Source: Alphaproteobacteria bacterium (lineage in GTDB: Bacteria > Planctomycetota > Phycisphaerae > UBA1845). From it: DNA of 64,000 bases. Shown one piece after another: positions 8,378-48,789 of the stretch. The first letter of the stretch is position 1; every line of letters starts with the position of its first letter. The stretch covers positions 1 through 64,000 of the forward strand of contig JANQQE010000005.1 in the NCBI GenBank assembly GCA_028285105.1. Reading direction: 5' to 3'. A program made the translations under genes and the position numbers. Under the pieces are notes generated by a model. That model was not told the DNA's origin, made no database searches, and worked only from the letters and a program-made list of their open reading frames with translations.

Positions 8378-8489
8378 GGGTCCAATTCTAAGGGGTCGGT
8401 GGTTCTTCCGCACTACATAGCGATCTCTAAGTCCCCAAATGCCGCCGTTTTGGGCCCCTTGTGACCTCTCAAGACGGATTCTCAAAAAA

Positions 8490-8539
8490 ATCGGCTGCGA
8501 ATGGCGGGTCTCGCCCCCCAATCGCGTGAACGGGGTGAG
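8490..8539 (+). promoter_or_regulatory. Class 1 upstream element before the secreted protein at 8649
   Basis: Carries CGTGAACGGGGTGAG at its 3' end, a weaker match to the conserved block found upstream of four other secreted-protein genes (18193, 20999, 45033, 48726). It lies 109 nt before the start codon, farther than the 61-70 nt seen in the others. It sits in the divergent gap between the sigma factor and its neighbour. It may be a promoter or conserved leader; the exact role is not visible. Confidence 0.4.
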
Positions 8540-8648
8540 CGGCGGCTCTCGCATGCGACCTTGCGGTGTCGCAATCGGGCAAGACGTTCGTGGGGAAAAC
8601 GGAAAACTCATTGATTGGCAAGTACAAGAGTACGAAAGGAAAGCGGAG

Positions 8649-20897: not shown

Positions 20898-20937
20898 GGT
20901 TTCGCGGTCAGCCGGTTTCGGTGTGTACGGGGGTGAG
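20898..20937 (+). promoter_or_regulatory. Class 1 upstream element, 40-nt perfect repeat copy 2
   Basis: Identical over 40 nt to 18083-18122 and placed 61 nt before the GTG start at 20999, just after a terminator. The preceding 25 nt are also similar (GGAAATC versus AGAAATC, T-rich run). The duplicated context argues that the block itself drives or regulates both genes. Confidence 0.65.
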
Positions 20938-20998
20938 GGCGCAGCGCGTCGCTCGACTGTGGCACAACATGATCAGTATTGCGAACAAGGAGAACACC

Positions 20999-23900: not shown

Positions 23901-25873
23901 GCGACTCGTTCGGGGATGCGTGCGACGGCTGTCCGGGCAACATCAACGCATTCAATCAAACGAAGGGCACGTTTCACCAAACCGTTCAGGACGCAATCGA
24001 CAGCGCGACGTCCGGAGATGAAATCAATCTGGGCGCTTGCACTTTCTACGAGGACAACCTGGTCATGCCTTCCGGCGTTGATCTTAGGATCGTCGGTGCC
24101 GGCATCGGGTCCACCATCATCGATGGCGAAGATGACGATGATGATTCAGTCTTTCTCTTCCAGGACACCTTACAGACCGAAAACACATTGATACAAGGGA
24201 TGACGATCACCAACGGCGGCGGTCCTGCAGTTAGCGCCGTGGCGGCGAAGCCGACAATCTCCAATGTACACTTCAAGAATTGCACCGGCACCGCGATGAC
24301 TCTTCGCGACGATCTATTGGTCGATCGGTGTGTATTCTCGGGCAATAACACGAGCTATGAGACCGTGTCTATCGCAGAGGGTGGTCCGACTTTTCTCGAT
24401 TGCCTGTTCTACAACAACAGCAATATTGATATCGTAGTCAACAACGAAGAGGGAACGGCGAAGTTCGTCAACTGCACAATGATCGGTGACGGAGAGGTGA
24501 TGCAACTGCGGCCGCTGTCCAGCACACAGATGACGAACTCAATCGTGGAAGGGTGGATCAATCAGCTAGGGACACTCGCCGCTTGGAATAACATCTACTG
24601 GGGCGCCTCCGGCGACAATATTGACGGTAACGCAACCTTTGTCGATCGGGATAACGCTGACTTTCGGCTCGCTGCCGGATCGCTCGGCATTGACGGGGGC
24701 GATTACGATGAGTTCATCGCCGCTGGCGGAGAGGCGACTCTTGATCGACCTCTGGACGATCTGGGGATCGCAAATACCGGGTCCGGTGTCAGCCCGTATC
24801 TCGACCTGGGGCCCTTCGAGTTTCAGGGCCTGACCGACAGCGATGGGGATGGCGTCGGAGATTCCATCGACCTTTGCCCTGGATTCGATGACAGCCAGGA
24901 CGTCGACGGTGACGGCATTCCAGACGGGTGTGACAATCCGCCGGTGGTCACTGTCCCCGCGGACCTTACAATTGGCGATCAATACCGACTGTTCTTTGTA
25001 ACCTCCAATCGATACGCGGCCGAGTCGAGCGACGCGAATCATTACAATCAAATCGTCACGACTGAAGCCGGTTGGGTTCCGCGTCTCGCCAGCCTGAACG
25101 CGACCTGGACCGCGATTGTCGCGACTCCCTCAGTGACAGCGCCGGTGAACAGCGGCACGGAGTGGCAGGCGGATGGACCGACCGGCGTTCCCATTTATCT
25201 CGTAGACGGAAATCGAATGGCTGACGACTACGACCACTTCTGGACGCTGCCGACGGGTCTTCGTGTGGCGCCCAATCTCACGGGCGACCTCCGGATACCG
25301 ACCCCACGCGTTTGGACCGGAACGCAGCAGGGCGGATCGACGAGCTCGCCGCTTGGTGGCACAGACAGTGAAGGAATGGCTATGGCGGGCTGGCCGGAGA
25401 CTACCGGCAATTTCTTCCTTAAATATCGGGAGTATCCGCAAACCAGAAGGTTCACACTCTACGCGATCAGCGAGGTGCTTACCGTCGAGTGCCCGGACAC
25501 CAACGACACCGACGGCGATGGGCTGGGCGATTCCTGCGATAATTGCCCGCTGACCGACAATGCCGATCAAGCCGACGCGGATGCTGACGGTGTCGGTGAC
25601 GCTTGCGATGTGTGCAGTTCGGGCGATGATACGGTGGACACAGACGGCGATCTGATTCCCGATGCGTGCGATCCATGCGCCGGTGGATGGGCCACCGGCG
25701 ATGCCGACGGCGATGGCGATGTCGATACCGATGATTACACCAAGTTCTCCGCCTGCATATCTGGTCCCGGAGGCGGAACGGGCGCAGGTTGCGATTGCTT
25801 CGACTTCGATGATGACGGTGATAATGACCTCCTAGACTACGCCGAGTTGGCGGTGATGTTGGCGCGACCGTAG
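20999..25873 (+). CDS. Giant secreted beta-helix / LamG / TSP3 protein with dockerin-like tail
   Basis: GTG 20999 has a strong AAGGAG 7 nt upstream, giving 1624 residues with a signal peptide (to about 38, TLGQ). In order: convertase-P-like sandwich (about 38-215), TSP3 repeats (217-367), beta-helix (370-670), TSP3 repeats, LamG domain (722-945), TSP3 repeats, second beta-helix (about 982-1277), TSP3 repeats, a domain of about 184 residues opening YRLFFVTSNRYAAESSD (about 1314-1497), TSP3 repeats and the EF-hand tail (1557-1624). Both the LamG and the YRLFFVTS domain interrupt a calcium repeat exactly in frame, as if inserted. It is a paralogue of the protein at 8649. Location is probably the cell surface or extracellular; function is unknown. 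Confidence 0.9.
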   Translation: MNYATSNSIDSTRRICLALGFALALVTTSQTLGQTFSNTTPITINPIENSPYPANPNRWTRNTSAPYPSVINVSGVSGDFAIEVTLHDYSHTYPFMTNVLLVPPAGPESVILMFQSGGHPDVANVELTFADGAPVLPFPIASGRYRPTTELPQPLFLDPAPNSGFGVNYSTDFSQFNSGNVNGTWSLYVMSAGMPTVTNWASGQFAGGWSIRFVPDTDGDGVFDTTDNCLNTPNADQVNWDGDEFGDACDNCIGVVNDQFDSDEDGLGDECDTCVFVVNPEQIDNDFDSVGDACDNCPYDSNANQADADGDFHGDACDNCPAVSNEYQSDSDGDRVGDDCDNCPSTPNPNQADSDNDNVGDACDTCSGAGITNVTRNTTHPTIQAAISAAQPNDEIHLGPCTFNEYNIKFVEARNVKIRGAGRERTFIDGSSNDNHSVFSINAAGIDDTTVISDLTILNAGGPGIVTNGNSPTIDDVRFLNITGASALIVTGPSYVNSCVFAGNSGADATLTIDTSNGKPTVLQGLFYDNTSDYAISVDGTGDCSLANCTITPASVAPLRLGASATLELWNTIVTGTPIFDGTLDARLSLFAGAVGSNLDGAPTFVDSSIGDYRLAAGSLGIDQAAGLLLAAAGAGLFDIADVLGQPRGHDDLGVQNGPGGLLDIGAIEFQGLTDTDGDGVGDVLDACPGSDDAVDTDGDGIADGCDNCADIANADQADTDSIDPQLQPAAAFRFEGQVGTTVFDEVNGVDGILAPAAWTVNGRRGGGIVLNGVDEAVTIPDSEAIDFDTDAAFTVMAWIKAPLVQNDTLNTDNDIIEKWDGIGGYPFVIRISNQDATTPGQITAARYDGSSGVSVFSRTRINDARWHHVAFVRENTGVLRLYIDGEEEASAQDTLTGSTRNNSPLFLGKRNAINFFTGELDEVAIYSTALTNVQIDYVISWGLSDGVGDVCDNCPAIPNTDQADMDGDSFGDACDGCPGNINAFNQTKGTFHQTVQDAIDSATSGDEINLGACTFYEDNLVMPSGVDLRIVGAGIGSTIIDGEDDDDDSVFLFQDTLQTENTLIQGMTITNGGGPAVSAVAAKPTISNVHFKNCTGTAMTLRDDLLVDRCVFSGNNTSYETVSIAEGGPTFLDCLFYNNSNIDIVVNNEEGTAKFVNCTMIGDGEVMQLRPLSSTQMTNSIVEGWINQLGTLAAWNNIYWGASGDNIDGNATFVDRDNADFRLAAGSLGIDGGDYDEFIAAGGEATLDRPLDDLGIANTGSGVSPYLDLGPFEFQGLTDSDGDGVGDSIDLCPGFDDSQDVDGDGIPDGCDNPPVVTVPADLTIGDQYRLFFVTSNRYAAESSDANHYNQIVTTEAGWVPRLASLNATWTAIVATPSVTAPVNSGTEWQADGPTGVPIYLVDGNRMADDYDHFWTLPTGLRVAPNLTGDLRIPTPRVWTGTQQGGSTSSPLGGTDSEGMAMAGWPETTGNFFLKYREYPQTRRFTLYAISEVLTVECPDTNDTDGDGLGDSCDNCPLTDNADQADADADGVGDACDVCSSGDDTVDTDGDLIPDACDPCAGGWATGDADGDGDVDTDDYTKFSACISGPGGGTGAGCDCFDFDDDGDNDLLDYAELAVMLARP

Positions 25874-26889: not shown

Positions 26890-29800
26890 TTAGTCAGTGG
26901 GAGCAAGTAAGGAGGTTGGCGAGTTATCGCTCATGAGATATGCATCGAGTTGAGAAACGATCATCTGTCTTTCATTGACTGATATCTGCTCTTTCAGTTT
27001 TTGAACGGCTTTGGCGTGCTCTGCCAAGAAACGCTTTTGCCCCGCATCTCCACTGCCGTATCGCGTAGCAGCAATCAGTGCTTTAGTATATTGAATTTGC
27101 CAATGGTCAGGGGGAAAGCGTTTCTCAAGTTCCGGCAATGCTTCGTCAAGCAAACTTTCAGCCGAGGCATATTTGTGCTGAGGGATCAAGCTCGTGACAT
27201 GAAGTCGCTGGGCGAGAGCAAAGGCGGCGGGATTGTTTGGCATATTCTCACGACAATAGTCTAAGAGTTCTCGACATAGCGGTTCGGCTTTGTCTGCGTG
27301 TCCGGAGGCAATTTGAGCTTGAGCCAATCTTGAAAGAACCGAGCTATACGAGCGCGTGCCTGTCATACCGGTTCTGCGAACTTGCTCCATGAGACCTGAG
27401 TACAATAAGCGGGCCTCTTCAAATCGACCGGCTGCCAACAAGATCGCTCCTTGCACATCCTTAGCCACGATCGTGCGAGGGTGATCAGGACCAAAACTGG
27501 CTTTCCGCCCTTCGATTGAAGCGATTGCAAACTGTTCGGCCTCCTTGAATGCTCCAAGATCCTTATATGATGACGCAAGATTGAGCGCGGCAACGCTTGT
27601 GGTGTTGTGTGATATTCCGAGCGTGCGCACGGCAATTCGGTAGGATTCAAGTAGCACGTCCACAGCTTCTCTTCGCCTGTGGGTCCGCACGAGCAAGTGC
27701 GATAGTGTATTTAAGGATCGCAACACAGCCGGGTGTTCTTCGCCAAGAACTGTTTTTCTTTTCGCCAACGCCTCGCGAAGCAGGGGTTCCGCCGATTCGT
27801 ATTTGCGCATGTAGATGTAGTTTTCGGCAAGGTTGTGACCGGATGACAACGTGCTCGGATGGTTTGCGCCGTAGATATTTTGAAATCGTTCATGTACCTC
27901 GGATATGAGAGGCTCGGCCTCTTCATACTTTCGGACCGACGTCAAAAGCAATGCCAAATCCTTCATCCGAGCGATCGTACTGGGGTGCCCATAGCCTTTT
28001 GCATCTCGAGAGATCTGGAGCACTTCTCGCAATAGCGATTCCGACTCTTCCGGTTGATTGGTGTGACGCAGGTGATTACCGAGCATCGCCATTGCATCGA
28101 TCAGCAATTGGTCATGAGGGTTCAGTTCGCGGCGCGCGACAACGAGGGCCTCGCGAAAGTTCTCCTCGGCTTCGGAGAACTTTGACCTGTCCTCTTGTAT
28201 CGAAGCCAACTGGAGTAAGGCCCTTAGAGTTTCAGGGTCTTGGCTGCCAAGTTCTAGTCGCATGCCTTCAACAACTTCCAGCAACTCTTGCTCCGCTTCT
28301 TCGTAGCGTCCCAGCATTGCCAGTGTCATGCTGGCCTTTCGTGCTGCTACAAGTGCGCTGGGATCATCCGTGCCAACGAGGGCCGACCGATGAGAATGCG
28401 CTGACTCGAATTGCAATCGGGCTTTTTCATATAGCCCAAGCGAATCGTAAACGCTGCCCAATGACATTCGAAGCTCGGCTTCGATGAGAGGCTGATCTTC
28501 GAATTCACGATCGACCGTATCGACGGCGTTGGAGATCACTTGCTCGTCGAGCAATCGGCTTGCAATGCCTGTGGCGTCGATGCGTGATAGGAGTTGCTCG
28601 ACGAGTACTCTTGAGATTTCGTCGTCTTCATTGGCTACCCGAACCGCGTCGGTCCGCAGGTCGGCTCGCAACTGCCCACCCATTTCTTCCAAGTCGATGT
28701 TGGTGAGCATTCTGCCTTGAAAGTCAGCCACTGCCTGAAGCTGCTTCTGTCGTTGCGTTGCTTGTTGCAACCCGTATAAACTGCCAACCAAACCAAGAAT
28801 AAGCGCTAACATCGTCGCTGTTGCGCCGCCCACCAACGCCTTGTTGCGTCGGGCAAATCTGCTCAATTGATAGAATGTGGTTGCTGGCCGGGCTTGGATT
28901 GGCTCGGAGTTTAGATAGCGCCGAATGTCCGCTGCCAACTCAGCCGCCGTTGCGTATCGGCGACCACGCTGCTTCTCCATTGCCTTGCACACTATCGTTT
29001 CGATATCACCGCGAAGGGCCTGATCAACCGATCCTAGCCGCGGCGGATCTTGCTCGCGTACGATGCTCACCGCTTTCGTGATGGCCATGCCGCTGAAGGA
29101 GAAGGGTACGTGACCCGCGAGTACTTCATAGAGAACCACACCAAGCGAATACACGTCGCACTGCGTATCGATGTCCGAAGTGTCCGCAGAGACCTGCTCA
29201 GGGCTCATATAACACAACGTGCCCAATAGCTCACCGACATTCGTTTCGAGCGTCACGACCCGCTGATCGCTATCGAGCATTCGGGCGATACCGAAATCGA
29301 CTATTTTGGGTTGGCCCATTGGCTTCGTGGTAGCCCGGTGCGCCGATCGTTCGATACATGAGGCATTTTCTTCGTCATCGATGACCAGGATATTGACCGG
29401 CTTGAGATCTCGGTGGATCACCCCTTTTTGGTGAGCGTGCTGCACTGCATCGCACACCCGCGCAACCAACTCCAGGCACTGGTCGACTCTCAATTCACGC
29501 GCCTTGCAGAAGTTGGTGAGCGATTGGCCTTCAATAAACTCCATGGCGAAGAACGGGGCGCTGTCATTCGAACGCTCGTCAATGGAGGCTTCGTAAATCT
29601 GCGCGATACCTGGGTGCTGCAACTGGCCCAGAACCTCTGCTTCAAGTTTGAATCTCCGAATCAATTGTCGAGAAATCATCGATGAACGAATTACCTTCAG
29701 GGCAACCCGACGCTGAGGTGACTGCTGTTGGGCCTCATAAACGGTGCCCATCCCACCCTGGCCAACGATCTTCACAATTTTGTACTGCCCGATTCGTTTG

Positions 29801-30051
29801 GGTAGCAGCGCACGTTTTGCGCATGTCTCGACCGAATCCACGTTATCCGAGATCAGTTCGGCAATACCCTGATCCATTGGACCATCAACGAATGCATGCG
29901 GCGCGTCGTGCTCCGAGAGAAGCGACCTAACCGCTTCGCGCAGGTTTGCGTCGGGACATCGATCATCAAGCCAGCTTCCGCGTTCCTCAACGGGGACCGA
30001 CAGTCCTTCTTCGAACAGAACCTTGGCTTCTTGGTATTGTTCAGGCGTCAC
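26890..30051 (-). CDS. Membrane Ser/Thr protein kinase with C-terminal TPR repeats (module 3)
   Basis: The protein has 1053 residues. Motifs are GQGGMG at 97-102, VALK lysine 119, HRDLKPVN 213-220, DFG 252-254 and MSPEQ at 282-286; all catalytic residues are kept. A single membrane segment lies at about 410-436 (GGATATMLALILGLVGSLYG). TPR-like repeats fill about 520-1000, less regular than in module 2. The GTG start overlaps the sigma stop (GTGA). It lies directly after the left end of element 2, the same position that kinase 1 has in element 1, so the two elements share a layout: att, kinase, sigma, then divergent secreted genes. It probably acts on the coupled sigma factor. Confidence 0.93.
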   Translation of the reverse strand: MTPEQYQEAKVLFEEGLSVPVEERGSWLDDRCPDANLREAVRSLLSEHDAPHAFVDGPMDQGIAELISDNVDSVETCAKRALLPKRIGQYKIVKIVGQGGMGTVYEAQQQSPQRRVALKVIRSSMISRQLIRRFKLEAEVLGQLQHPGIAQIYEASIDERSNDSAPFFAMEFIEGQSLTNFCKARELRVDQCLELVARVCDAVQHAHQKGVIHRDLKPVNILVIDDEENASCIERSAHRATTKPMGQPKIVDFGIARMLDSDQRVVTLETNVGELLGTLCYMSPEQVSADTSDIDTQCDVYSLGVVLYEVLAGHVPFSFSGMAITKAVSIVREQDPPRLGSVDQALRGDIETIVCKAMEKQRGRRYATAAELAADIRRYLNSEPIQARPATTFYQLSRFARRNKALVGGATATMLALILGLVGSLYGLQQATQRQKQLQAVADFQGRMLTNIDLEEMGGQLRADLRTDAVRVANEDDEISRVLVEQLLSRIDATGIASRLLDEQVISNAVDTVDREFEDQPLIEAELRMSLGSVYDSLGLYEKARLQFESAHSHRSALVGTDDPSALVAARKASMTLAMLGRYEEAEQELLEVVEGMRLELGSQDPETLRALLQLASIQEDRSKFSEAEENFREALVVARRELNPHDQLLIDAMAMLGNHLRHTNQPEESESLLREVLQISRDAKGYGHPSTIARMKDLALLLTSVRKYEEAEPLISEVHERFQNIYGANHPSTLSSGHNLAENYIYMRKYESAEPLLREALAKRKTVLGEEHPAVLRSLNTLSHLLVRTHRRREAVDVLLESYRIAVRTLGISHNTTSVAALNLASSYKDLGAFKEAEQFAIASIEGRKASFGPDHPRTIVAKDVQGAILLAAGRFEEARLLYSGLMEQVRRTGMTGTRSYSSVLSRLAQAQIASGHADKAEPLCRELLDYCRENMPNNPAAFALAQRLHVTSLIPQHKYASAESLLDEALPELEKRFPPDHWQIQYTKALIAATRYGSGDAGQKRFLAEHAKAVQKLKEQISVNERQMIVSQLDAYLMSDNSPTSLLAPTD

Positions 30052-30623
30052 CTAAGCCCCGCTTTTCTGAGTTCACCGCTCAACCACGCCTTGGCCATGC
30101 GCCATTCACTTTGCACTGTTGTGCGTGAGACCTTAAGAATGTCGGCCACCTCTGCCTCAGTGAGACCGCCCAGAAAACGAAGCTCAACGACACGGTACTG
30201 GCGCTCGTCCAGCTGGGAGAGTTTCTCCAGGGCGTCATCCAGCATCACTAGATCAATCGCCTCTTCGTGCGATGGCGTCAGCAGGCCGGTCAATGTGATT
30301 TGTTTAAAATCGCCACCGCGTTTCTGAGCGCGCCTGGCTCGAGCGTGATCGATCAGCACCCGCCGCATCGCAGTGGCACCGACCGCCTTGAAGTGTGTTT
30401 GCCCCTGCCACTGCACACGGGTTTGGTCGATCAGGTGAAGGAACGCTTCATGCACCAGTGCCGTCGGTTGCAGCGTGTGATTGGGAGACTCACCGCGTAA
30501 GAATCGTCCGGCAATCGAGCGCAGGTCGTTGTAGACCAGGGGCGTCAACTTCTCCGCCGCAGACTGGTATCCGGCGTTCAGGTCCTCCAGCAATCGCGTG
30601 GCATAGTTCGATTCATCTGACAT
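30048..30623 (-). CDS. ECF-family RNA polymerase sigma factor (module 3)
   Basis: The protein has 191 residues from ATG 30623. HTLQPTALVHEAF is at 49-61; region 4 at about 125-185 carries VVELRFLGGLTEAEVADIL followed by SEWRMAKAWL. It overlaps kinase 3 by 4 nt and is divergent from the FGE-like/LVIVD protein at 30817. Its presumed targets (30817 and 34929) share an upstream sequence different from the class 1 element of the other modules, which would fit a different promoter specificity. Target assignment is inferred from position only. Confidence 0.93.
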   Translation of the reverse strand: MSDESNYATRLLEDLNAGYQSAAEKLTPLVYNDLRSIAGRFLRGESPNHTLQPTALVHEAFLHLIDQTRVQWQGQTHFKAVGATAMRRVLIDHARARRAQKRGGDFKQITLTGLLTPSHEEAIDLVMLDDALEKLSQLDERQYRVVELRFLGGLTEAEVADILKVSRTTVQSEWRMAKAWLSGELRKAGLR

Positions 30624-33800: not shown

Positions 33801-34641
33801 TCCGGCTTCGCCCGCGCAGCTCGGTTCGTACCCCATGCCAAGCGATGAAGCTTATCATGTGGAAATAGCAGGTGATCTCGCGTTTGTAGCCTCCAAGCTT
33901 GGTCTCCGAATCATTGATGTGAGCACACCGGCTTCACCCACGTTAGTTGGCTCGTACGACACAACTGGCGAAGCCCGCAGCGTGGCAGTGACAGACGGCA
34001 CGGCGTATTTGGCGGTACGAAGTGATGGCTTACTCGTTATTGATGTGAGCAATCCGAGCGCCCCCGTGCTGCTCGGTGAGTACCACACGGTGGGGGCCGC
34101 GGCCGCGGCCTCGGATGTGGCCGTGGTGGGCGACATCGCATACGTGGGCTATGGACCGCTTGGTCTGGAGATCCTTGACGTGGGCGATCCGGCCAACATC
34201 ACGCTGCTGGGAACTCATGAAACCCCAGGTGAGGTGTATGGCATGACGGCAGTCGGCACCTCCTTGTATCTGGCAGATAGCGGCAGCGGTTTGCTGCAGG
34301 TCGTCGACGCCAGTGATCCGATGTCGCCGCAACTGCTCGGCTCGCACCTCTCCTCATACGGTGTCGTGAACGTAAACGTGGTGGATTCAACCGCGTACAT
34401 CGCCAACGGTAGTGCCGGCCTGCTGATCTTAGATGTCAGTGACCCATGTGATACGTCATGCGCATCCGACTTTAATGGCGACGGTCAGGGCGATCCGAGC
34501 GATCACGCCATTTTCACCAACTGCATGTTCGGTCCGAACAACTCAATGTCGAACGGATGCGGAGCAGCGGACCTGGATGCTGATGGCGACGCCGATCTAG
34601 CAGACTTTGCCTTGCTCCAACGGACCTTCGACTGCCCATAA
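30817..34641 (+). CDS. Secreted FGE-like / LVIVD-repeat protein with EF-hand tail
   Basis: ATG 30817 follows GGAG; 1274 residues with a late signal sequence (about 33-58, HVVGLCSVVCLSMSTSSARA). Residues about 60-320 hold two similar beta-rich repeats (SFTKDAITITIP and SFTESSITINLP). Residues 324-611 resemble the formylglycine-generating-enzyme/sulfatase-modifying fold (FEITAGQYTEFLNA, ending GIGFRVARL). The region where true FGEs keep catalytic cysteines (RGGAYYSSSDDLRSW) has none, so a non-enzymatic binding role is likely. Residues 624-1208 carry about 14 LVIVD-type beta-propeller repeats (LQIIDVSDPASPALLGSYDT). The tail 1211-1274 is a variant EF-hand pair. First gene divergent from sigma 3. 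Confidence 0.88.
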   Translation: MLEGNGRTRAARRNMETWYAARLVPAARSASCGIAMRHVVGLCSVVCLSMSTSSARASLIGDSIEWDFALENVGSIESGLAVVVEPGAEASTTIGFALASLYEADLMTVDSIFMTDDSLSLSHFNNSPLGNKTIWTFHDLDWPGAPSRISDVTQTGGTAVDDISFTKDAITITIPDGSGTRGFDFDIEHRLLAGLEDDTFNWSFAAAVAGNLASGTATVKDPGVDASWTHPLFFDVYEADFASDTLTLRYPSGHFNSESTWTFTGLDFVYPLAAGIHEVTQIGGGAVNDVSFTESSITINLPEVHGPAEFTFRVTPIAAVAEVSVETITITHPGNAGDAPHGGYGSVDHLYDIGQFEITAGQYTEFLNAIATDDTHGLYNPDMWDEDTGCKIWQAGSPGGHVYSVAPDWEDRPVNFVSWGDAARFCNWLHNGQPTTGTQDLTTTEDGSYFLNGATTDEELIAITREPDATWVLPSEDEWYKSAYHNNDGATANYWDYPTGSDTAPSSEAPPGFDMDDGSANFNGSDYAIGAPYYRTDVGAYDARPSVSPYGTFDQGGNVFEWSEGIAFVTSRVSRGGAYYSSSDDLRSWNQSSYVPTFEWTGIGFRVARLRNDSSPCIIPERLGGLYTSGFATNLAIEDNIAYLANGTHGLLVADVSDLSAPFVLSAPDMSTDASDVWADGARVYVTDVDLGLLIIDASTPTSPTLLGSYSEAGSMYGLTVRGTTAYVAAFANGLQIIDVSSPSTPILLGSSIGSGLAFDVAVAGNTAYVASVEAGLQIVDVSDPSNVTLLGSYDTPGFAVGVTVVDGVAYVADGEEGLQIIDVSDPTMPELLGTYDTQGAAINVVVEGGTAYVADGDAGLQIIDVGDPASPALSSWYSTPGTVVGLLLHENKVYVADGDFGVQIIEMRTPPLTVDSLGAFDTPSYATDVTVLGTTAYVLDGSGGLQVVDVSEPASPLPLGSYDTMGYASSAAVVGTTVYVADPITGLQIVDVSDPASPAQLGSYPMPSDEAYHVEIAGDLAFVASKLGLRIIDVSTPASPTLVGSYDTTGEARSVAVTDGTAYLAVRSDGLLVIDVSNPSAPVLLGEYHTVGAAAAASDVAVVGDIAYVGYGPLGLEILDVGDPANITLLGTHETPGEVYGMTAVGTSLYLADSGSGLLQVVDASDPMSPQLLGSHLSSYGVVNVNVVDSTAYIANGSAGLLILDVSDPCDTSCASDFNGDGQGDPSDHAIFTNCMFGPNNSMSNGCGAADLDADGDADLADFALLQRTFDCP

Positions 34642-34835
34642 CCCGATCCGCAGTGACAAACTCATGACGACATAGAGTCGTGGTGCGAGATGGCCCACAG
34701 CCAGTTCTCACCGCGATTCTATCTTTCTCTTGGTTCACCAAGTCACGCCAAGGCGCCACCGCTGAGATTTGCCAGCTGATTGCTGCCGGAATCGGGACCA
34801 TTTGTGAAAACCAAAGAAAAAGTTTCACGAAATTA

Positions 34836-34879
34836 TCTGAGCTTCCGGCGTCTCGATTTCGCGTTACTTGCGTCACTGG
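34836..34879 (+). promoter_or_regulatory. Class 2 upstream element, copy 2
   Basis: Matches 30722-30764 in the words CTGAGC, CGGCGTCTCGA, TTTCGCGTTA and CGTCAC, and ends 49 nt before ATG 34929. The sequence between the genes is otherwise unrelated, so the conservation is local. The gap 34642-34928 holds nothing else recognisable. Confidence 0.5.
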
Positions 34880-34928
34880 ATTGGAACGCCCAACCAAATG
34901 CACATGTTTGAACAGAGGAGTCGCATCG

Positions 34929-37900
34929 ATGACGGATGGAGTTAGTTGCAAACAATCAACTACAAGAGTTTGGATAGGCCGCCAGAACCAAGCACTTTCT
35001 GTAGCCGTGATGCTCATTGGGTTCCTTAACGCGTCGCCGTCAATCGCTCAATCGACCAACACGCATTACAACGATGGCCCTATCGATATGAATGTTTGGG
35101 TCGATTCAGTCTACGTGGGTGATCCTGGTACAGACGGGAGTGTAACCGGAGGGGGTGACAACGCCGAACATCAATTCAGGGTCGATGCGGACTTTCAAGC
35201 CCCAGGATTGGTTCCCAACGGCCGCTATTGCGATACTTGGGTAACCGACGACTGGGACGGTGGCTGGCATGGAGTCGGTGCGCGCCTCGTCACTTTGACG
35301 GATGCCGTTGCTTCACCCAAGGCCGCGTCATTTACGTTTACCTATATCGAGAACGACGAATTCTACTGGCCTTGGGAGGATGAGGATGACTGTGATCCCT
35401 GGGTTGACAGGGAAAATTTCGGACGAATATTCTGGAATAATCTCCAACTTCGTCAACATGAACCATATACCAATTATACATACACCTACAATCCAGATCC
35501 GAATTGGCCGCACCTGGGTCTCCGCATCGGTTACTGGTACACGACGCCCGCACCAGCTGCAGCCGTCCCAAACGCCTTGGGGGCGGGGCCTGGGGACACA
35601 ATCACTGTACGCGTGACCCCGCCGCGCGGGTCAACCGGGAACGGTGGATACGACTGGGCAGATGATGTCGGAGTGAACCTCTACATGGAGACTCAGCCTG
35701 GAAGTGGTCAGTTCAATACCGTCTACAACACGACGGTCAATTGGGCGAATATGAACTCCGACCTATCCGTTCAGATTCCGCTCGGAACGTTAGCCGGCGA
35801 CCTGACATTCAGGGCACATGCTCAGTCTCCTCCTGACGTCAATGATGAGTGGCCACCACAGAGCAAAGGATTCGTAGAATTCACCATCGAGATTTGCGAT
35901 CAACTGACCGAATTCCCGATCGTTTCCTGCAAGAACCATACTGCATACCTAAACGCTGACGGAGTGGCAACCATTCAACCTCAGGACGTCAATAATGGCG
36001 TGCTTTCCAATTGCGGAAATTACTCCATGTCTGTTTCGCCGACGTCATTCACGTGCGCAGACATCGGAGTCAACGACGCCATACTGTCCGTCAGGAATGA
36101 CGAGCTCGGTTCCCAATGCCTCGCCCAAGTGACTGTTGTTGACATATCCCTCCCGCAAGCCGTGTGTTCAAATCAGACCGTGACGCTCGACGCCGCAGGG
36201 ACCGGTACTCTAACCGCCAGCGATTTTGATGGCGGATCCTCCGATGTATGCGGGAACATTGACGCACATCAGGTATACGCCAGTGGCTGGGCACACGTCG
36301 TGGCGACATGGGATCGAGCCGGCGACGCCGTGCTTTATGTCGATGGTGTTGAGCAAGCCCGGGTGAACATCAGTAGCTATTGGTTCAACAACAATTCTGC
36401 AACCGTTCGACAAATTGGGAATGCCTTGGAAGGAACGACGCCGAGCAGACATTGGTTAGGAGGTATCGACGATGTTCAGGTGTTTGACAGGTCGTTGACA
36501 CCGCTGGAGGTGAAGCAGTTGTTTGACCCATCAAGCGTGGACACTCCGCCGACAGCCACTCCCTCCGCCCGTTGGAGGTTCGACGAATCTTCCGGACTGG
36601 TTGCAGTCGATGATGCAGGTGCGAATCCCGGGACGCTGGTTGGCTTTGCCAACAACGACGCTCAATGGGTGCCCGGTGAGGTGGGGAATGCTCTGCAATT
36701 CGACGGTGGCAACGATTCGATGACCCACGGGTACACCCTCGGTCACGCTGGCACGATCGCCCATTGGCTCAAGCCACAAGATCCACACAGGACGAGCATC
36801 GCTTACTATGAATCGAATTCCGGACCGGGTCATGACGGTTTCGGTGACGGACAGGATCTCCTTGAAATTCACACATTTCAGTCAGGCGGTAAGTACGGGT
36901 TTTACTATCAGGATGGATCGCAGGGGGGCTCGAGCTTCAGGCTTGAAGCCGATCGCTCAGTTCCAGGCAGTTCACTCAATTTCTCCTGCGACGACGTTGG
37001 ATTCCACGAAGTGACCATGATCGCGTACGACGAATTTGGCAACGGCGGGAATTGCGAGACGTTCGTCGAAGTCCGCGAGGATGTTGCCCCCAGCGCTCAA
37101 TGTGTGGCTGAATTGAGCTTCGAAATCTGCACCAATGGTACGGTGGAGATCACTGTCGACGACATCGATAACGGCTCAAGCGATGCATGCTCCGGAGTCT
37201 TTACGCGTAGTCTAGATCGTACTCAATTCGGCGAAGCTGACGTTGGTGGCAACATGGTGACGTTGACCGTGACCGACCGCTCCGGCAATCAGAACACATG
37301 CATGTCAACTGTGACAATCAGCATACCCGATACCGATGGAGACGATACGCCAGATTGTCTCGACGGGTGTCCAGACGACGCAAACAAAACTGCGCCAGGG
37401 GCTTGCGGGTGCGGCATTCCCGATACGGATTCGGACAGCGACGGTTCAGCAGATTGCAACGATGGTTGTCCGAATGATGGCAACAAGACCAGTCCCGGTC
37501 AGTGCGGCTGTGGAATCGAGGACCTCGATTCCGACTTGGATGGAACTTGCGACAACGTCGATCTGTGTCCCGGTTTCGACGATGCGCTGGATGCGGATAC
37601 TGACGGCGTTCCTGACGGCTGCGATGTCTGTGGTGGCTTCGATGACGCGTTGGATGCTGATAGCGACGGAGTTCCGGATGGTTGCGACATTTGTAACGGA
37701 TTCGATGATACGATTGATTCCGACGGCGACGGCGTCCCGAACGGTTGCGATCTCTGTCCGGGTTACGACAACACAGCCGATGCCGACGGCGATCAAGTTC
37801 CCGATGGTTGCGACAAGTGCCCCGGGTTTGATGACACATTTGATCTTGATTTGGACGGTGTACCGGACGACTGCGATGCGTGCTTAGGATTCCCGGACGA

Positions 37901-39020
37901 GTTTGATGCAGACGCAGACGGCGTCCCGGACCTGTGTGATGCATGTCCAGGCCATGACGACAACTTCGACACCGATGCTGACGGAATTGCGGATGGCTGC
38001 GATACGTGCCCAGGATTTGACGACGGAATCGATAGCGACAGTGACGGCATACCAGACGGTTGCGACTTGTGCTCGGGCGACAATGAGGCCGATTTCGATC
38101 AGGACGGTGTCATTGACGGCTGCGACAATTGTCCGGACTTCGCTAATCCTGAACAAACCGACTGTGATTCGAATGGAGTCGGTGACGTCTGCGACATCTA
38201 CTGCTCGGTGACGACAGGGGGTAACAACCTCGGCTTTGAGTCTGGTGACTTCACGGATTGGCATGTTGAAAACCTTCAAATACCGGACCAACCATGGCAG
38301 GTTCTTCCACTTCCCATTTCGGAGGGTAATTTCGCCGCGTTCGTTGCCAATTCAGGTTCTACACCGGGTGTTATCCGAATCGAACAGGACATGGCGATCG
38401 CCAGTGACGCTGCATGGCTGGTCTTTGACTACGTCCTCAAATGGGATCTTGCACTTGCGACGCTGGACCGCACATTCGAAGTGCACATCGAACCTGCGGG
38501 CGGAGGCACGACCTTGCAGGCCGACGTGATCGCCACGATGTCTGCAGGTACAACGTTCAACCCACCGCCAACGGGTACGCTTGCGCCCGTAGGTCGAACA
38601 GGCATGGTTGACGTCAGCGACTTTGCAGAATCGACGGTTCGGGTGGCATTCGTTTGGACCGTGCCTGAGGCCGACGTTGGTGTTGCAGCATCTGTCTTAG
38701 ATCATGTTCGAAGTCGGGCCTCCGGAGCGGCTTGTAGAGTGCTCGACAGCGACAATGACATGGTGCCGGACACGTGTGACTCCTGCCCCAATACACTGTC
38801 AGATGTTGACGTAGATAGCGAAGGATGCGCGGTCATTTACGGACCCGGGGACTGCAATTTCGACCACGCGGTCGACCTGAGCGATTATGCAATGCTTGAG
38901 GCATGTCTATCGGGACCGCAAGCCGGTCTTGACATGCAATGCGATTGCTTCGACTTCGATGTCGATGGTGATAACGATCTTAGTGATTTCTCTGAATTTC
39001 AATTGCTCATGATGCGCTAG
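34929..39020 (+). CDS. Giant secreted HYR / LamG / TSP3 protein with EF-hand tail
   Basis: ATG 34929 follows AGAGGAG; 1363 residues with a signal peptide to about 40 (NASPSIAQ). The N-terminal 300 residues are unique, beta-rich and Trp/Tyr-rich. Three HYR-like domains follow (about 325-410, 415-715, 718-797). The middle one is split by about 234 residues that read as a LamG domain in permuted order: the C-terminal half (GWAHVVATWDRAGDAVLYVDG) comes before the N-terminal half (ARWRFDESSGLVAVDDAG). TSP3-like repeats run about 800-1090, then a beta-sandwich region (NNLGFESGDFTDWHV, about 1098-1270), and an EF-hand tail (CNFDHAVDLSDY, CDCFDFDVDGDND). Probably exported to the surface; function unknown. 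Second gene of module 3. Confidence 0.88.
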   Translation: MTDGVSCKQSTTRVWIGRQNQALSVAVMLIGFLNASPSIAQSTNTHYNDGPIDMNVWVDSVYVGDPGTDGSVTGGGDNAEHQFRVDADFQAPGLVPNGRYCDTWVTDDWDGGWHGVGARLVTLTDAVASPKAASFTFTYIENDEFYWPWEDEDDCDPWVDRENFGRIFWNNLQLRQHEPYTNYTYTYNPDPNWPHLGLRIGYWYTTPAPAAAVPNALGAGPGDTITVRVTPPRGSTGNGGYDWADDVGVNLYMETQPGSGQFNTVYNTTVNWANMNSDLSVQIPLGTLAGDLTFRAHAQSPPDVNDEWPPQSKGFVEFTIEICDQLTEFPIVSCKNHTAYLNADGVATIQPQDVNNGVLSNCGNYSMSVSPTSFTCADIGVNDAILSVRNDELGSQCLAQVTVVDISLPQAVCSNQTVTLDAAGTGTLTASDFDGGSSDVCGNIDAHQVYASGWAHVVATWDRAGDAVLYVDGVEQARVNISSYWFNNNSATVRQIGNALEGTTPSRHWLGGIDDVQVFDRSLTPLEVKQLFDPSSVDTPPTATPSARWRFDESSGLVAVDDAGANPGTLVGFANNDAQWVPGEVGNALQFDGGNDSMTHGYTLGHAGTIAHWLKPQDPHRTSIAYYESNSGPGHDGFGDGQDLLEIHTFQSGGKYGFYYQDGSQGGSSFRLEADRSVPGSSLNFSCDDVGFHEVTMIAYDEFGNGGNCETFVEVREDVAPSAQCVAELSFEICTNGTVEITVDDIDNGSSDACSGVFTRSLDRTQFGEADVGGNMVTLTVTDRSGNQNTCMSTVTISIPDTDGDDTPDCLDGCPDDANKTAPGACGCGIPDTDSDSDGSADCNDGCPNDGNKTSPGQCGCGIEDLDSDLDGTCDNVDLCPGFDDALDADTDGVPDGCDVCGGFDDALDADSDGVPDGCDICNGFDDTIDSDGDGVPNGCDLCPGYDNTADADGDQVPDGCDKCPGFDDTFDLDLDGVPDDCDACLGFPDEFDADADGVPDLCDACPGHDDNFDTDADGIADGCDTCPGFDDGIDSDSDGIPDGCDLCSGDNEADFDQDGVIDGCDNCPDFANPEQTDCDSNGVGDVCDIYCSVTTGGNNLGFESGDFTDWHVENLQIPDQPWQVLPLPISEGNFAAFVANSGSTPGVIRIEQDMAIASDAAWLVFDYVLKWDLALATLDRTFEVHIEPAGGGTTLQADVIATMSAGTTFNPPPTGTLAPVGRTGMVDVSDFAESTVRVAFVWTVPEADVGVAASVLDHVRSRASGAACRVLDSDNDMVPDTCDSCPNTLSDVDVDSEGCAVIYGPGDCNFDHAVDLSDYAMLEACLSGPQAGLDMQCDCFDFDVDGDNDLSDFSEFQLLMMR

Positions 39021-39058
39021 GTGGCATTCAGGCAGTTCAATGAGCTCGAACGGTGAAA

Positions 39059-39094
39059 GCTGCGGGGAGTCCCTGGGGACTCCCCGCAGCACCC
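39059..39094. terminator. Bidirectional terminator between convergent genes
   Basis: A perfect 15-nt inverted repeat (GCTGCGGGGAGTCCC / GGGACTCCCCGCAGC) with minimal loop, followed by ACCCTTTT, sits between 34929-39020 (+) and 39157-45033 (-). It probably serves both genes. Confidence 0.85.
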
Positions 39095-39156
39095 TTTTGC
39101 CAATGAGCGAATCATTACCCATCATCTTTGGCTGATTCGGGGAAGTGGAGACGCTC

Positions 39157-42100
39157 TTACTCGGCTAGATCAATCGCCCCTGTAAGGCTGTGCGCACCCA
39201 ACCCGCCCAGCGGGAATTCGCCAGGACCTTCGCCTGGGTCCCATGGCCCCGGACTATTTTCCGTGAGCTCAATATCCCATTCGGTAGTCTGCGAAATCAT
39301 CGGACCGTACGACCGTTCGATGTAGCAGCCGGATGGAGGACAAATTCCCTGGTACCAGGCTTCGAGGTCGAACCCAGCGGCTTCTGACACTGAACGAAGG
39401 GTACCGTAGAATGTACTGTCGTTGGTGAAGGTCGATGGCAAATCGAACACGATTTCATAGTCGACTCGGCCATCATTGTTCACGTCGGCACCTGCCGGAA
39501 GCGTCACATCGATCGATTGGTCAAGGGGTAAGGGCATCGTGCTTCCATCTTCAAATTCGATAGAGGCAGAGGGCTGACTCCAATCAAGGAAGAAGTTCTG
39601 CTCAACTCTTAGGTCGCCGTTGAAACTGAAGTTCCATAGCAAGTATTCCCCGGTAATTACCATGCCGAAGACTTCGACTGGTGGGATCGTTCCGGTGTTG
39701 CTCGGTAACCCTGCTGCGCTCAGGGCTTGTTCGATGTAGGAATTCCAATTGATCGTGTCTGCCCTCAACAACTGTTTAGTGATGGTCTGCGTCGTGCCCA
39801 TTTCGGTTGCGGCGCCGGCGACAGCCTGCCACGATTTCGGAATTGTAGAAGAGATGATTCCCTCCGATGAGTCCGCAAACGATCTTGGTCCGTAGTCGAA
39901 GAAGTCCGTTTCCAATTCAAAGTCTGTCACTGCGAAATCAACCCTGAAGTCCATGCCCGGCGTCGTACCGTACATCTCGGGCTCCGTGTCGGGCGTCAAG
40001 GTTGTGACTGCAATTGTGAACGTCTCGCCAATGTTGACTTCGTCCGGTAGAGCAATTCCCGCCTTGAAGGGAATGGACGCGCTGACGCTACCCGGATCCC
40101 AGTCTAGAATTGCAATCAATTCCGTCTCACCATTGATGGACACACCCAAGTCTTGTCCAAATAACTCGATGCCCTCATCCGGCGAATCAAGGGTCGTCTC
40201 GAATCCCAGTTGAAAGTCCTCCAAAGTCAGGGAACCGTCCGTCGACCAGATGCTCGCGTCGGTCGTTTCAAAACTGAAGTCTATCGGAGCAATCCAGGCA
40301 TCCACATCTTGAAGAGTGATGCTGACCACCACCGGAGGCGAACTCAGCCCGTTGCTGTCGACCGCATATACTGTGAATTCCTGCGTTGGTGAAGACTCAA
40401 AATCCAGGAGCGATCCGTCACCAACCGTCAACGCACCCCCGATCGGGTCGATCGCAAACGCACCGGGTAATGCCGGTGAGGTGAGCGTCGGATCCTCAAC
40501 GTCGATTTCGTATCGAATCGTATCGCCACCGTCTTGATCCGTAGCTTCAAACGTACCGACAGACTCGCCAGCCGGTGCGTGTTCTTCCAACACCGATACG
40601 AATTGCTGGGTGATCCAGACTGGGGCTTCGTTCACGCAAATGACATTCACGATGAGCGTTGCATCACCGATTGAACCACTGCTATCGGTCACCTCAACAT
40701 TTAGCGTGTAGGTGTTCACTTGTTCAAAGTCGATTAGACCATCGACGAAGATTTCCCCGGTTGCAATGTCGAGGCGGAAGACACTTGCACCCGTTCCCCC
40801 GACAATCGTGTAGTCCACAATGGTGTCGCCGTCCGCATCCGACGCATTGACAAAACCGACCGAAGTATCCACAGGCGTATTTTCGATGACTGTCAAAGTA
40901 TCGGGGGCGACATACGGAGAGAACTTCAGTGTGACACCGACCTCAACAAACAGCTCCGCACGTCCGGCGCTGAAGCTATTGAAATCGATACCGTTGTCGG
41001 CAACGGCGCCATTGAACTGCCAATTGTCGCCCAGTGATTCAACCTTGTCTTCGGACGTACCGACGACATACAGGCGGTTACTCGTCGGGCTGAGATTCAG
41101 AAGATCGAGGCGACGCACCGACACTGAGTCAGGACCGGGTTCGCCCAAATCGATTCGTTCAATTTCGTCAATGCGATCGCGTTGGTCTTCAAGGCTGAGC
41201 ACAATCTCGCCCGAAAAGCGGAGTGTGTCTTCACCAGCGCCACCGCGAACGCGGTAGAATTCGGAGCTACCGATCACGATGGTGTCGTCACCGGCACCAC
41301 CGTAGAAGGTATCCGCGCCACCAGCTCCAATCATTAGGTCATTTCCCTGACCGCCAACCATCGAATCGTCTCCGCCCGTACCAGTCAGCGTATCGTCTGT
41401 TTCATCTCCGCGATGGGTGATTGAACCGTTGAAGTCATCTCCATAGACGAAGTATGCAACTCCCGCATCGGTGGCAATGGAATCGTTCCAGGGTGCGCCC
41501 ATCAGAATGTCGTTGATACCGTCGCCATTGACGTCGCCGGATGAACTGACTGACCAACCGTGTTCGTCACCTGACTCGCTTCCAAGAATGACGATTCCAT
41601 TTTGGTCTTCGCTCAACGTATCGAGATTAATGGCACCCGATTCGGACTGGCCGAATACAACAAACGTGCGATTGGAGCTTCCAAAAAGCAGATCGTCCAT
41701 TCCATCGCCATTCACATCGCCTATTGCGTTGATGCTCCTCGGAAATGAATCGTCCTCAAGTGTGAACATACGTACGCCTCGGTCTGGCGTGGGGAATGGG
41801 GAGTCGTAGGTGCCGAATCGATCATCAAGAACAACGTCATCGTCGTCAGAACCGAATACTACCAATACTTCGTGCGCCTGATAAACGCCGGCATACCCCT
41901 GATAGTTGATCATCGTAACGAACCAGTCTGATCGTCCGTCACCATTGAAGTCACCAGCAAGTTGCATTGGCGCGCCGGATAACACGCGGCCAGAGTATGG
42001 CAAATCATTGAAGATATCCCAGTCAAAGAACCCCATTGCCAGATTCACAACCCCAGGAGTCGTCGGAATCAAATCGATCGAATCCGTCGCAGTACGACCA

Positions 42101-45363: not shown

Positions 45364-48300
45364 TCAGTTCCCATCCATCGCGAGTTGGAATTGGGCAAAG
45401 TCAGACAGGTCGTTGTCACCGTCATCGTCAAAGTCGAAGCATTCGCAACCGATGCCCACAGTTCCGCTGGGGCCATCCAGGCAGGTTTTGAATTCAGCGT
45501 AGTCTTCGAGATCGACCACGCCGTTGCCATCCGCATCGGCAGAAGAAGCCCCACCGGCGCATGTGTCGCACCCGTTCGGGATCCCATCGGAGTCGGTGTC
45601 AACTGTGTCGTCGAAACCGGGGCAGGCATCGCAGTCGTCGGGCACGCCGTCGGTATCGCCATCCAATTCGCAATCGTCAGGGATTTCATTTGAGTTGCAG
45701 TCCGCGCTGGTGCCCAAACTGATGTCTTCCAAATCGTCCACGCCATTTGTGTTACAGTCGCTGATGATGTTTTGGATGATTGCGGTTACATCGCTTCCCG
45801 AGTACTCCTGCAGAATTGGACAACCGCTGACAACATCGACAACTGAGCTCGTGGTTGCGACATGCGTGATGTGAAACATCTTGGGTGATGAAGAGCTGAC
45901 CTGCGACCGCAAGGTCGCGGTAACGAAGTAGGCGTTCGGCACATCGAACGCCACCTGAGCGAGAGGATCGCCTGGGGTGAAACCGATGGATTGCACGCCC
46001 TCGACGAGGTTCAGTGATTCCAATGAAGTCACCAGTGCGTCAGTACCCGCATCAAAGCTACCCGAACCGTCGTCCAAGTAGATCGACACGCCGTCAATTA
46101 CGCCTTCAGCGGCCTGTGTGGTTAAAGGAACGCCGGCGCTCTCCTCGAAGAGTAGCGCAACACTTTCCAGTTCGATGCTGTTGTCACCGGAGCGGCCATT
46201 GTGGATCACAACGATCTCAAATAAATCATCACTCTGTCCGGCTGTCCAATTCTCGGGCGCGGTGGCGGTGGTAGTCAGTTTGTACTGTCCTCCGCGGTTT
46301 TCCCACCACGCAATGTCATCCGCGTCCTTGGCCGCGCCGAGGATGTCGGTGTCTCCGTCGCCATCCACATCTGCTGCAAAGACGAATTCGGCGCCATCGA
46401 AGTCTCCTTCAAGCGTATGCTCGAACCATTCGCTCCCATCCCCAATCGTGTTCTCCCACCAGGTGATGTCATCCGCGTTCGCGGCCGCGCCGAGAACGTC
46501 TATATCACCATCACCGTCCACGTCAGTTGCAAACACAGAGACTGCACCAGCAAAGGTGGCGTCAATTGTGTGTTTCGTCCAGTTAGCCCCGTTCCCCGTC
46601 GTATTCTCCCACCACGCGATGTCGTTGGCACCCCACGCCGCGCCGAGGATGTCATTATCCCCGTCTCCGTCCACGTCCGCAGCAAATACGAACTCAGCGC
46701 CGGTAAAGTTTCCAGCCACTGTGTTCTCCGTCCAAGTGCTCCCGTCTCCGGCAACGTTGTCAAACCAAGTTATGTCATTCGCGTCTCGTGCCGCGCCAAG
46801 AACGTCAACGTCCCCATCACCGTCCATGTCCGCTGTGACAACAACTTGGGCGTTACGAAAAGTGCCGTCTATCCTGTGCTCAGTCCACGCGCTCCCATCA
46901 ACACTCGTGTTTTCCCACCAGGTGATGTCGTTGTCTGAACCAGCGGTTCCAAGGATGTCAGTGTCTCCATCGCCGTCCACATCGTCGGCATAGACGGAAG
47001 TGGCGCCATTAAAATCGTTAATCACTGTGTGTCGGGTCCATGCACTCCCATCACCTGCAACATTCTCCCACCAGGCGATGTCACCGGCCAATAGCGCGGC
47101 CCCCAATATGTCGTGGTCTCCGTCATTGTCGATGTCCGCCGCGTAGACAAATTTGGCCCAATTGAAATTGTCTGCCACAATGTTCTTAGTCCATGCACTC
47201 CCATCACCAGCTACATTCTCCCACCAGGCAATGTCGTCTGCGTCCTGCGCTGCTCCAAGGATGTCTAAATCCCCGTCGCCATCCAAGTCCGCTGCATAAA
47301 CGGCCTCGGCACCGTCGAAGTCGCCATCTAGCGTATGCTTGAATGGAAATGTGGCATTGCGTCGCGGCAGGGTGTCCTCGTAGCAGCCGTCCGGGATTCC
47401 GTTGCCATTGCAGTCCATGCACAGCGGATTCTCGTTGCAGTTGGCGATGTCTTCCGTGTTGGCGATTCCATTCTGATCGCAGTCCCGCTCGACAATCACG
47501 TGGTGGTTCGTCGTATCATAACGTGCAGCCCAGGACCGCCCGTCTGTTGAAGTGACGTTGGTGAACGCACCACTGATCGAATTCGCAGTAAGAACGACAA
47601 ACGAATCAGCGGGGTCGGCCGTAAATCCCTCATCAAATTCGAGCTTGAGCGTTCCACCGAGGTTCGCTGTGTTGTTGATCGACAGCACGTCATGCTCACT
47701 TTCAGAAGTCAACCCGGCAATTTGAATCGCAAGCGTTGCTCCCGGCTCAAACATCACATCACCAAGAGTCAACGAACCGATGTCATCGCCAGGGGCGACC
47801 GTGCCCCCCGAAAGAACATTTGTTGTCCCCGAACTACTCCCGTTTCCTCCCAGTTTTGCCCCGTGTTGAACTTCGACATAGGCCGTTCCGGTGCTCGAAC
47901 CACTGGTATTGTTCAAGAGAAGTGTTCCGGACTGCACTTCAGTGCGCTGGGTGTATGTGTTGGCGCCACTGAGCGTCTGCACGCCTGTGCCTTTCTTGTC
48001 GAACCCACCGTTTCCGCTAATGGTTCCGAAGAACGCCGAGGTTTGATCCCCCGTGCCGACACCGATGTCACCAAGCAGTTCGATTGATCCGGAGCCATTT
48101 AAACCACCGAATCCTTCGTTGTCAGCAATCCGCAGGACACCTCCACTTGCAATTGCGACATCGGTGTTGTTCCCCAGACTGTTGCCAACGCCAACCTCAA
48201 GCACACCGGCGTCGACGGTGATATCTCCGTCGTAGTTGCTGTTATCACCGGTTAGGACCAACGTGCCGTCGCCCAACTTGGTCACGTCGACATCACCAGC

Positions 48301-48726
48301 AAGCGATTGCTGAATCTCGACGGCTGCAAATTGACCGATCGCCCAACCATCGTCGGCTAAGGGAGTGACTGGAACATTGAGAGTGTGCCTAACAGGCGCT
48401 CCGGTTGACGGCACGAGCAGATCGGCGAAGTTCAATGACGACAGCAATCCGGACGAGAACGTGTATGGAGCGGAGCTATCCAGAGTCAATTTGTTGACGA
48501 TGACGGAAGCGATGAGGATCACATCCTTGCGCGCCGCGGTCTGATCAAAAGTCGCGTCGTCGCCTGGCGCCGGCATCAAGCTGTCTTCCCAGTTTAGGGG
48601 TAATTGCCAATTCTCGTTGAATTCACCAGTCCAGATGGCCTCGGCCGCCCAGATTGGACTTGCTGTTTGTGCCAGCATGGCTAGGGCTATTGCGAAATGC
48701 ATTCGGTAGAAGTTCAAAATAGTCAC
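45364..48726 (-). CDS. Large secreted FG-GAP-repeat protein with dockerin-like tail
   Basis: GTG 48726 has AAAGGAG 5 nt upstream; 1120 residues with a signal peptide ending near IWAAEA (about 29). Residues about 30-400 resemble the start of the protein at 45033, with autotransporter-type strands (GTGVQTLSGANTYTQRTEV). Residues about 465-820 are seven near-identical 51-residue FG-GAP/VCBS-type repeats (FVYAADIDNDGDHDILGAA..DIAWWEN). A beta-rich region follows (about 825-990), then TSP3-like repeats and an EF-hand tail (DADGNGVVDLEDY, CECFDFDDDGDND). It is divergent from the module 4 sigma gene and in the same direction as 45033, with a class 1 element upstream of each. Probably exported to the surface; function unknown. 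Confidence 0.9.
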   Translation of the reverse strand: MTILNFYRMHFAIALAMLAQTASPIWAAEAIWTGEFNENWQLPLNWEDSLMPAPGDDATFDQTAARKDVILIASVIVNKLTLDSSAPYTFSSGLLSSLNFADLLVPSTGAPVRHTLNVPVTPLADDGWAIGQFAAVEIQQSLAGDVDVTKLGDGTLVLTGDNSNYDGDITVDAGVLEVGVGNSLGNNTDVAIASGGVLRIADNEGFGGLNGSGSIELLGDIGVGTGDQTSAFFGTISGNGGFDKKGTGVQTLSGANTYTQRTEVQSGTLLLNNTSGSSTGTAYVEVQHGAKLGGNGSSSGTTNVLSGGTVAPGDDIGSLTLGDVMFEPGATLAIQIAGLTSESEHDVLSINNTANLGGTLKLEFDEGFTADPADSFVVLTANSISGAFTNVTSTDGRSWAARYDTTNHHVIVERDCDQNGIANTEDIANCNENPLCMDCNGNGIPDGCYEDTLPRRNATFPFKHTLDGDFDGAEAVYAADLDGDGDLDILGAAQDADDIAWWENVAGDGSAWTKNIVADNFNWAKFVYAADIDNDGDHDILGAALLAGDIAWWENVAGDGSAWTRHTVINDFNGATSVYADDVDGDGDTDILGTAGSDNDITWWENTSVDGSAWTEHRIDGTFRNAQVVVTADMDGDGDVDVLGAARDANDITWFDNVAGDGSTWTENTVAGNFTGAEFVFAADVDGDGDNDILGAAWGANDIAWWENTTGNGANWTKHTIDATFAGAVSVFATDVDGDGDIDVLGAAANADDITWWENTIGDGSEWFEHTLEGDFDGAEFVFAADVDGDGDTDILGAAKDADDIAWWENRGGQYKLTTTATAPENWTAGQSDDLFEIVVIHNGRSGDNSIELESVALLFEESAGVPLTTQAAEGVIDGVSIYLDDGSGSFDAGTDALVTSLESLNLVEGVQSIGFTPGDPLAQVAFDVPNAYFVTATLRSQVSSSSPKMFHITHVATTSSVVDVVSGCPILQEYSGSDVTAIIQNIISDCNTNGVDDLEDISLGTSADCNSNEIPDDCELDGDTDGVPDDCDACPGFDDTVDTDSDGIPNGCDTCAGGASSADADGNGVVDLEDYAEFKTCLDGPSGTVGIGCECFDFDDDGDNDLSDFAQFQLAMDGN
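46276..47335 (-). repeat. Seven tandem 153-nt coding repeats (FG-GAP type)
   Basis: Seven in-frame units of about 51 codons inside 45364-48726, each containing a D-x-D-x-D-G-D calcium-loop word and the phrase WWEN followed by DGSAWT or similar. High similarity between units suggests recent expansion by slippage or unequal crossing over. Confidence 0.85.
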
Positions 48727-48789
48727 GTGTGCTCCTTTCGCATCGTGCGTCGGTCGTTGCAATCAGTGAGAGCGCCAATCCGCTTTCGC

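Follow-up and report, generated by a model that had tools for sequence, protein, structure and literature searches.

We analyzed a 64,000-nucleotide stretch of DNA (the window) that sits on a 219-kb contig of a draft assembly (36 contigs, 97.8% complete). One gene in the window, which we refer to as the host gene, encodes a probable signal peptide, an N-terminal region with no family match, and three HYR-like Ig domains. Acidic repeats of a thrombospondin-3-like type come next, and behind these lie another C-terminal region and, last, a dockerin-like tail (Table 1). Most of these parts have weak Pfam scores. HYR-like domain 1 is not matched by Pfam alone and scores 104 bits against a HYR profile that includes its own copy, and repeats similar to the acidic repeats are strong matches in relatives. 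The second HYR-like domain (HYR2) is interrupted by a LamG domain whose N-terminal half follows a linker, downstream of its C-terminal half.

Table 1. Features of the host gene (HYR2, HYR-like domain 2).
Feature	Position	Strand	Basis or remark
Open reading frame, 1446 codons	34680..39020	+	ORF listing of the window
Candidate true start, ATG (MTDGVSCK...)	34929	+	By-eye reading
Putative signal-peptide-like stretch, ending ...SPSIAQ	immediately before 35052	+	By-eye reading
HYR-like domain 1, uninterrupted	35913..36149	+	Alignment with HYR2 and G099 HYR repeats
HYR-like domain 2, N-terminal half (PQAVC...CGNIDAHQVYA)	36150..36281	+	Profile positions 1-36
Insert, one period of 229 codons (LamG_3, circularly permuted)	36282..36968	+	Edges +/- ~10 codons
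LamG C-terminal half (SGWAHVVATWD...LEVKQLF)	36282..36524	+	Laminin_G_3 positions 80-151
Linker DPSSVDTPPTAT between former C and N termini	36525..36560	+	
LamG N-terminal half (PSARWRFDESSG...RLEADRSVPG)	36561..36968	+	LamG profile positions 2-127
HYR-like domain 2, C-terminal half (SSLNFSCDDVGFHEVTM...)	36969..37088	+	Profile positions 41-74
HYR-like domain 3	37089..37325	+	Pfam HYR 26.6 bits on whole protein, residues 854-880
Acidic calcium-binding-type repeats, thrombospondin type 3-like	37326..38201	+	Pfam TSP_3 E 0.0003, under curated cut-off
Dockerin-like C-terminal motif	38844..39017	+	Pfam Dockerin_1 E 0.002, under cut-off

Elsewhere, the window carries four homologous genes of a Ser/Thr kinase plus TPR type (4782-8611, 13917-18010, 26890-30623 and 48914-52710; mutual identity ~35-42%), at least three of which are paired with an ECF-type sigma-like gene, and giant secreted multidomain genes are interspersed among them. 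The giant proteins encoded at 8439-13379 and 20921-25873 are paralogs, ~41% identical across 750 residues. Both have TSP3-like repeats and a beta-helix, and from one to the other, segments have been rearranged and duplicated; only the protein at 20921-25873 contains a LamG domain, of canonical order. A dockerin-like tail motif, GP...GC-C-FDFD-D-DNDL-D-A-F, ends the products of the ORFs that start at 143, 8439, 18157, 20921 and 34680 on the forward strand and of the ORF at 45364-48762 on the reverse strand. The Pfam Dockerin model mostly misses this motif, which may serve as a signal for sorting or attachment. The pairing of kinase and ECF-type sigma genes, together with giant proteins that carry dockerin tails, points to a source that is probably in or close to Planctomycetota. 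At 59801-61327, we found a gene for a secreted-looking protein with a C-terminal motif that by eye looks Kazal-type.

A prior sequence-only reading of this DNA had proposed that an insert interrupts a HYR-like domain, and we found that removing one period of the insert from HYR2 leaves a continuous HYR-like domain. Against a HYR profile built from relatives without the HYR2 copy, the N-terminal half scores 30.9 bits, the C-terminal half 11.6 bits and the joined domain 52.0 bits, so that homology to other HYR-like repeats holds across both halves. The rejoined domain aligns with HYR-like domains 1 and 3 and with repeats from genome G099, to which it is 42% identical, and is 3 residues longer than its relatives at the insertion site. 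Because its score against Pfam HYR (PF02494) is 17.8 bits, under the cut-off of 21.7, we call the domain HYR-like. It shares with PF02494 the cysteine pattern and the DxDNGSxDxCG and SFxCxxVG motifs, and differs from it in being split by a 229-codon guest.

The insert is in frame, with 0 stop codons in its own frame versus 4-13 in each of the other five. Its closest relative that we found, on contig C68 of a genome from the same bacterial family (G026), is a normal-order LamG that aligns with insert residues 100-234 and then, from the next base, with residues 7-85; identity is 48% over the first of these segments and 50% over the second. We scored the insert in each of its 229 rotational phases with a LamG profile made from 19 canonical domains (query left out). 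The best single-domain score rose from 84.4 bits in the native order to 170.2 bits, with the maximum placing the start of the domain in the linker. Pfam Laminin_G_3 (cut-off 27.6 bits) gives 65.6 bits in two separate stretches for the native insert and 79.4 bits in a single stretch for the rotated one; on the whole protein, it reports one stretch (positions 78-151), which begins in the C-terminal half at the start of the insert. The join in the rotated copy reads RSVPGSGWAHVV; in an alignment, its SVPGSGWAH join has the same length as in both LamG domains of G038 and is 1-2 residues longer than in the G026 and L036 LamGs. The swapped order of the halves, and the rejoining of the insert's ends into a normal LamG, had both been noted from the sequence, and both stand.

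The insert exceeds the curated score cut-off of Laminin_G_3 (PF13385) but lacks its canonical N-to-C order of halves. Since the C-terminal half comes before the N-terminal half, the insert is a circular permutant of Laminin_G_3 rather than an ordinary member. At 26 positions the other five aligned LamGs are invariant, and the insert retains the residue at 23 of them; canonical copies, each left out in turn, keep 79-90% of such residues, which is the same rate, and the insert therefore shows no visible decay. Judged from sequence, the permutation of the LamG is far beyond chance. The insert combines the predicted fold of its homologue with old termini that are joined and new termini that lie elsewhere, as in natural circular permutants. 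We are highly confident in this anatomy, a permuted LamG nested inside a HYR-like domain.

Structure prediction, which had been suggested as a check on the swapped order, gave a single ConA-like sandwich spanning both halves. We performed an AlphaFold2 prediction of the nested construct with 41 aligned rows, in which rows from tandem arrays are collinear with the permuted order; viral contigs yielded no HYR homologues that could have enlarged this alignment. The LamG part has pLDDT values of ~71-93 (model residues 44-210) and of ~55-63 onward to residue 270; the HYR part is modeled at low confidence (~40-55), and the discontinuity of the host domain is seen in the sequence. The top PDB match to the insert model is 1ajo (Z 11.3, 159 residues, rmsd 3.4), which covers model residues 42-257 and thus both halves; concanavalin A and its close relatives come next, at Z 6-7. 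An S-layer protein domain, 4qvs, aligns with the N-terminal half of the insert model only (Z 9.1), versus an end-to-end sequence match with a normal-order LamG. Foldseek alone gives a weaker result (1ajo, E 0.013). As a control, we folded an L036 LamG that has the canonical order and shares the subfamily of the insert, using canonical rows. The control matches ordinary LamG-like domains over the full length at Z 20-26, and neither 1ajo nor concanavalin A is among its 50 matches listed. Once rotation of the order is allowed for, strand and helix lengths in the insert model reproduce those seen in the control. From these models, the insert is predicted to fold as a single ConA-like sandwich. Among viral proteins, the sole strong fold matches to the permuted model are two LamG proteins of Pyramimonas orientalis virus (BFVD A0A7M4CEP4 and A0A7M3UNS0), which presumably arise via the C-terminal half and N-terminal half of adjacent array domains.

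These data bear on the idea that the two half-domains are remnants of unrelated LamGs, placed side by side by coincidence in a decaying stretch that does not fold. The poor modeling of the HYR part would suit such a stretch, but the halves jointly make up one complete LamG with a canonical join, both have the same G026 domain as their best match, the family-invariant residues are kept, and one sandwich is predicted. We consider a coincidence of this kind highly improbable.

The sequence-only reading had assigned the insert to 36266-36967, with a length of 234 codons. The insert is real; these coordinates are one base off frame, the in-frame equivalent being 36267-36968, and the period is shorter, at ~229-230 codons. 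When both cut points were varied, the summed LamG and HYR score was best for periods of ~229-232 codons, mostly 229-230 (687-690 nt). The residues HQVYA could be part of HYR instead of LamG, which would account for the difference from 234. The summed score is flat across phases, so the breakpoint is known only to ~10 codons, with the left edge of the insert at ~36255-36285 and the right edge at ~36947-36976. The sequence CAGT occurs at both junctions (36281-36284 and 36968-36971), and we considered it as a crossover or microhomology site; shuffles showed that chance alone yields such a match often enough (P 0.27 when in-frame shifts are kept nearby, 0.74 over a wider range), and we rejected it. 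We found no terminal repeats or target-site duplications flanking the insert. With CAGT at chance level and no such repeats or duplications, the junctions provide no evidence for an insertion mechanism.

One candidate source is a mobile circular element, an integron-type cassette or similar, that brought in the LamG by site-specific recombination. Inserting a circle would give a product of just this kind, but the ends of the insert carry none of the terminal repeats, target duplications or recombination elements of an integron cassette or transposon, and Rfam elements are absent from 34000-40000. Nor did we find a close relative in the viral contigs and plasmids searched: the viral contigs contained no donor, and the plasmids only distant LamGs with 27-30% identity. 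We consider such an element a highly improbable source.

A search for a tandem LamG donor gene in the same genome had also been suggested as a check. The assembly holds 8 LamG_3 matches, the insert included, and no other stretch of it resembles the insert at the DNA level, so a donor was not recovered there. GC content and third-position GC (GC3) of the insert equal those of the host gene, which suggests that the insert is native to similar genomes or has ameliorated. A search with the N-terminal region of the host gene for an orthologue free of the insert gave no match in four same-genus genomes. This lack of an orthologue, and the 36-contig state of the draft assembly, would be compatible with a fragment of a LamG array mis-joined into a HYR gene during assembly or binning. 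Against such a misjoin, the assembly offers no second copy of the insert to drive it, both junctions are in frame and in the same phase, they have just 4 bp in common, and the insert agrees with the gene in GC and GC3 on a contig of 219 kb. An assembly artefact is thus an unlikely source of the nested arrangement, and we give it very little weight.

The nearest relatives of the insert are, besides the G026 domain, LamGs from G038 (same family), L036 and G743. L036 is a Taylorbacteria contig (JAHFMB010000096.1) that encodes three tandem LamGs behind one membrane-helix-like segment; the middle LamG of this array and the permuted insert are members of one subfamily. Related genomes often carry LamG domains in tandem, and by an eye count in a single example, the linker of the insert equals in length one inter-LamG linker in a tandem array of G741, which fits an array period. 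We scanned 154 LamG ORFs with 213 full canonical domain matches (some counted twice across overlapping loci) and found the permuted order in the host gene alone. No second nested copy appeared in searches of the order and of samples from the class and the phylum, which together cover at most ~764 distinct genomes, often with just five candidates scored in each.

Permutation by duplication and truncation has to be weighed here. Two full, normal-order LamGs would have entered the HYR domain, with the first losing its N-terminal half and the second its C-terminal half. Duplication and deletion is a standard published model for natural circular permutants (PMC3281007), and tandem LamG arrays are abundant in related genomes. 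This route needs two independent deletions whose ends coincide within the domain, with nothing missing or doubled, and no intermediate was found in ~760 genomes; we regard it as a rather unlikely origin. A single one-period insertion is the simplest account, because the LamG and linker are complete, nothing is missing or doubled, and the host is continuous once the period is removed. We therefore favor, as the probable origin, insertion of one complete period of LamG plus linker, supplied either by an array of tandem domains or by a circle.

In the insertion model, one LamG period (domain plus linker) would enter a loop of the Ig-like HYR domain in frame, which would leave the guest permuted as LamG C-terminal half, old-terminus linker and LamG N-terminal half. 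Illegitimate recombination or template switching could have brought the period in from a tandem LamG array, or its source could have been a small circle; array unit and circle would give identical products. The new ends of the permuted sandwich would lie side by side, and because they adjoin, the HYR strands could continue on either side. HYR would then still fold around its guest, and the inserted period would have been kept since as a folded module. In the mature secreted protein, the LamG would form a two-tethered head on an Ig-like/TSP3-like stalk, and by analogy with its family this head would probably bind glycans or proteins.

Insertion and circular permutation coincide in the host gene: the guest is complete and the host can be restored by deleting one period, making this a rare natural example. 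It points to a simple genetic path by which repeat arrays could give rise to nested, permuted domains in the surface proteins of bacteria. As a tentative generalization, for which we would claim only a modest chance, a single array unit inserted at an arbitrary phase could give rise to nested domains that are born circularly permuted, with the host gene as a recognizable case. Permuted guests can escape ordinary domain annotation, as seen in the single Pfam stretch from the C-terminal half. In the literature searched, we found no paper describing a permuted LamG, or a LamG within HYR, which leaves the absence of such cases unproven, and none describing the combined case of a guest permuted by the insertion itself.

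Compared with Laminin_G_3 (PF13385) and the G026 LamG, the insert is alike in family, conserved residues and predicted ConA-like sandwich, with 48-50% identity to the latter, and differs in that its halves are swapped and that it lies inside another domain rather than between domains. Concanavalin A is permuted through post-translational ligation of its polypeptide. Relative to favin it is, like the insert, a circular permutant of the ConA-like fold, but its permutation is at the polypeptide level, whereas that of the insert is at the gene level and nested in a host domain. The 1,3-1,4-beta-D-glucanase of Fibrobacter succinogenes, a natural permuted jelly-roll, is permuted at the gene level as the insert is, and the best structural match to the insert model, 1ajo, is a jelly-roll glucanase that was circularly permuted by engineering. 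Both the Fibrobacter glucanase and 1ajo are enzymes and not guests within another domain. One published account cites concanavalin A and favin as the first observed circular permutation and the Fibrobacter enzyme as a natural jelly-roll permutant (PMC3281007). Circular permutation and domain insertion are as a rule handled as distinct processes, and another account, which describes domain insertions as common, explicitly keeps the two apart (PMC13114784). Natural jelly-roll permutants and domain insertion are already known; what sets the host gene apart is that both arrive together.
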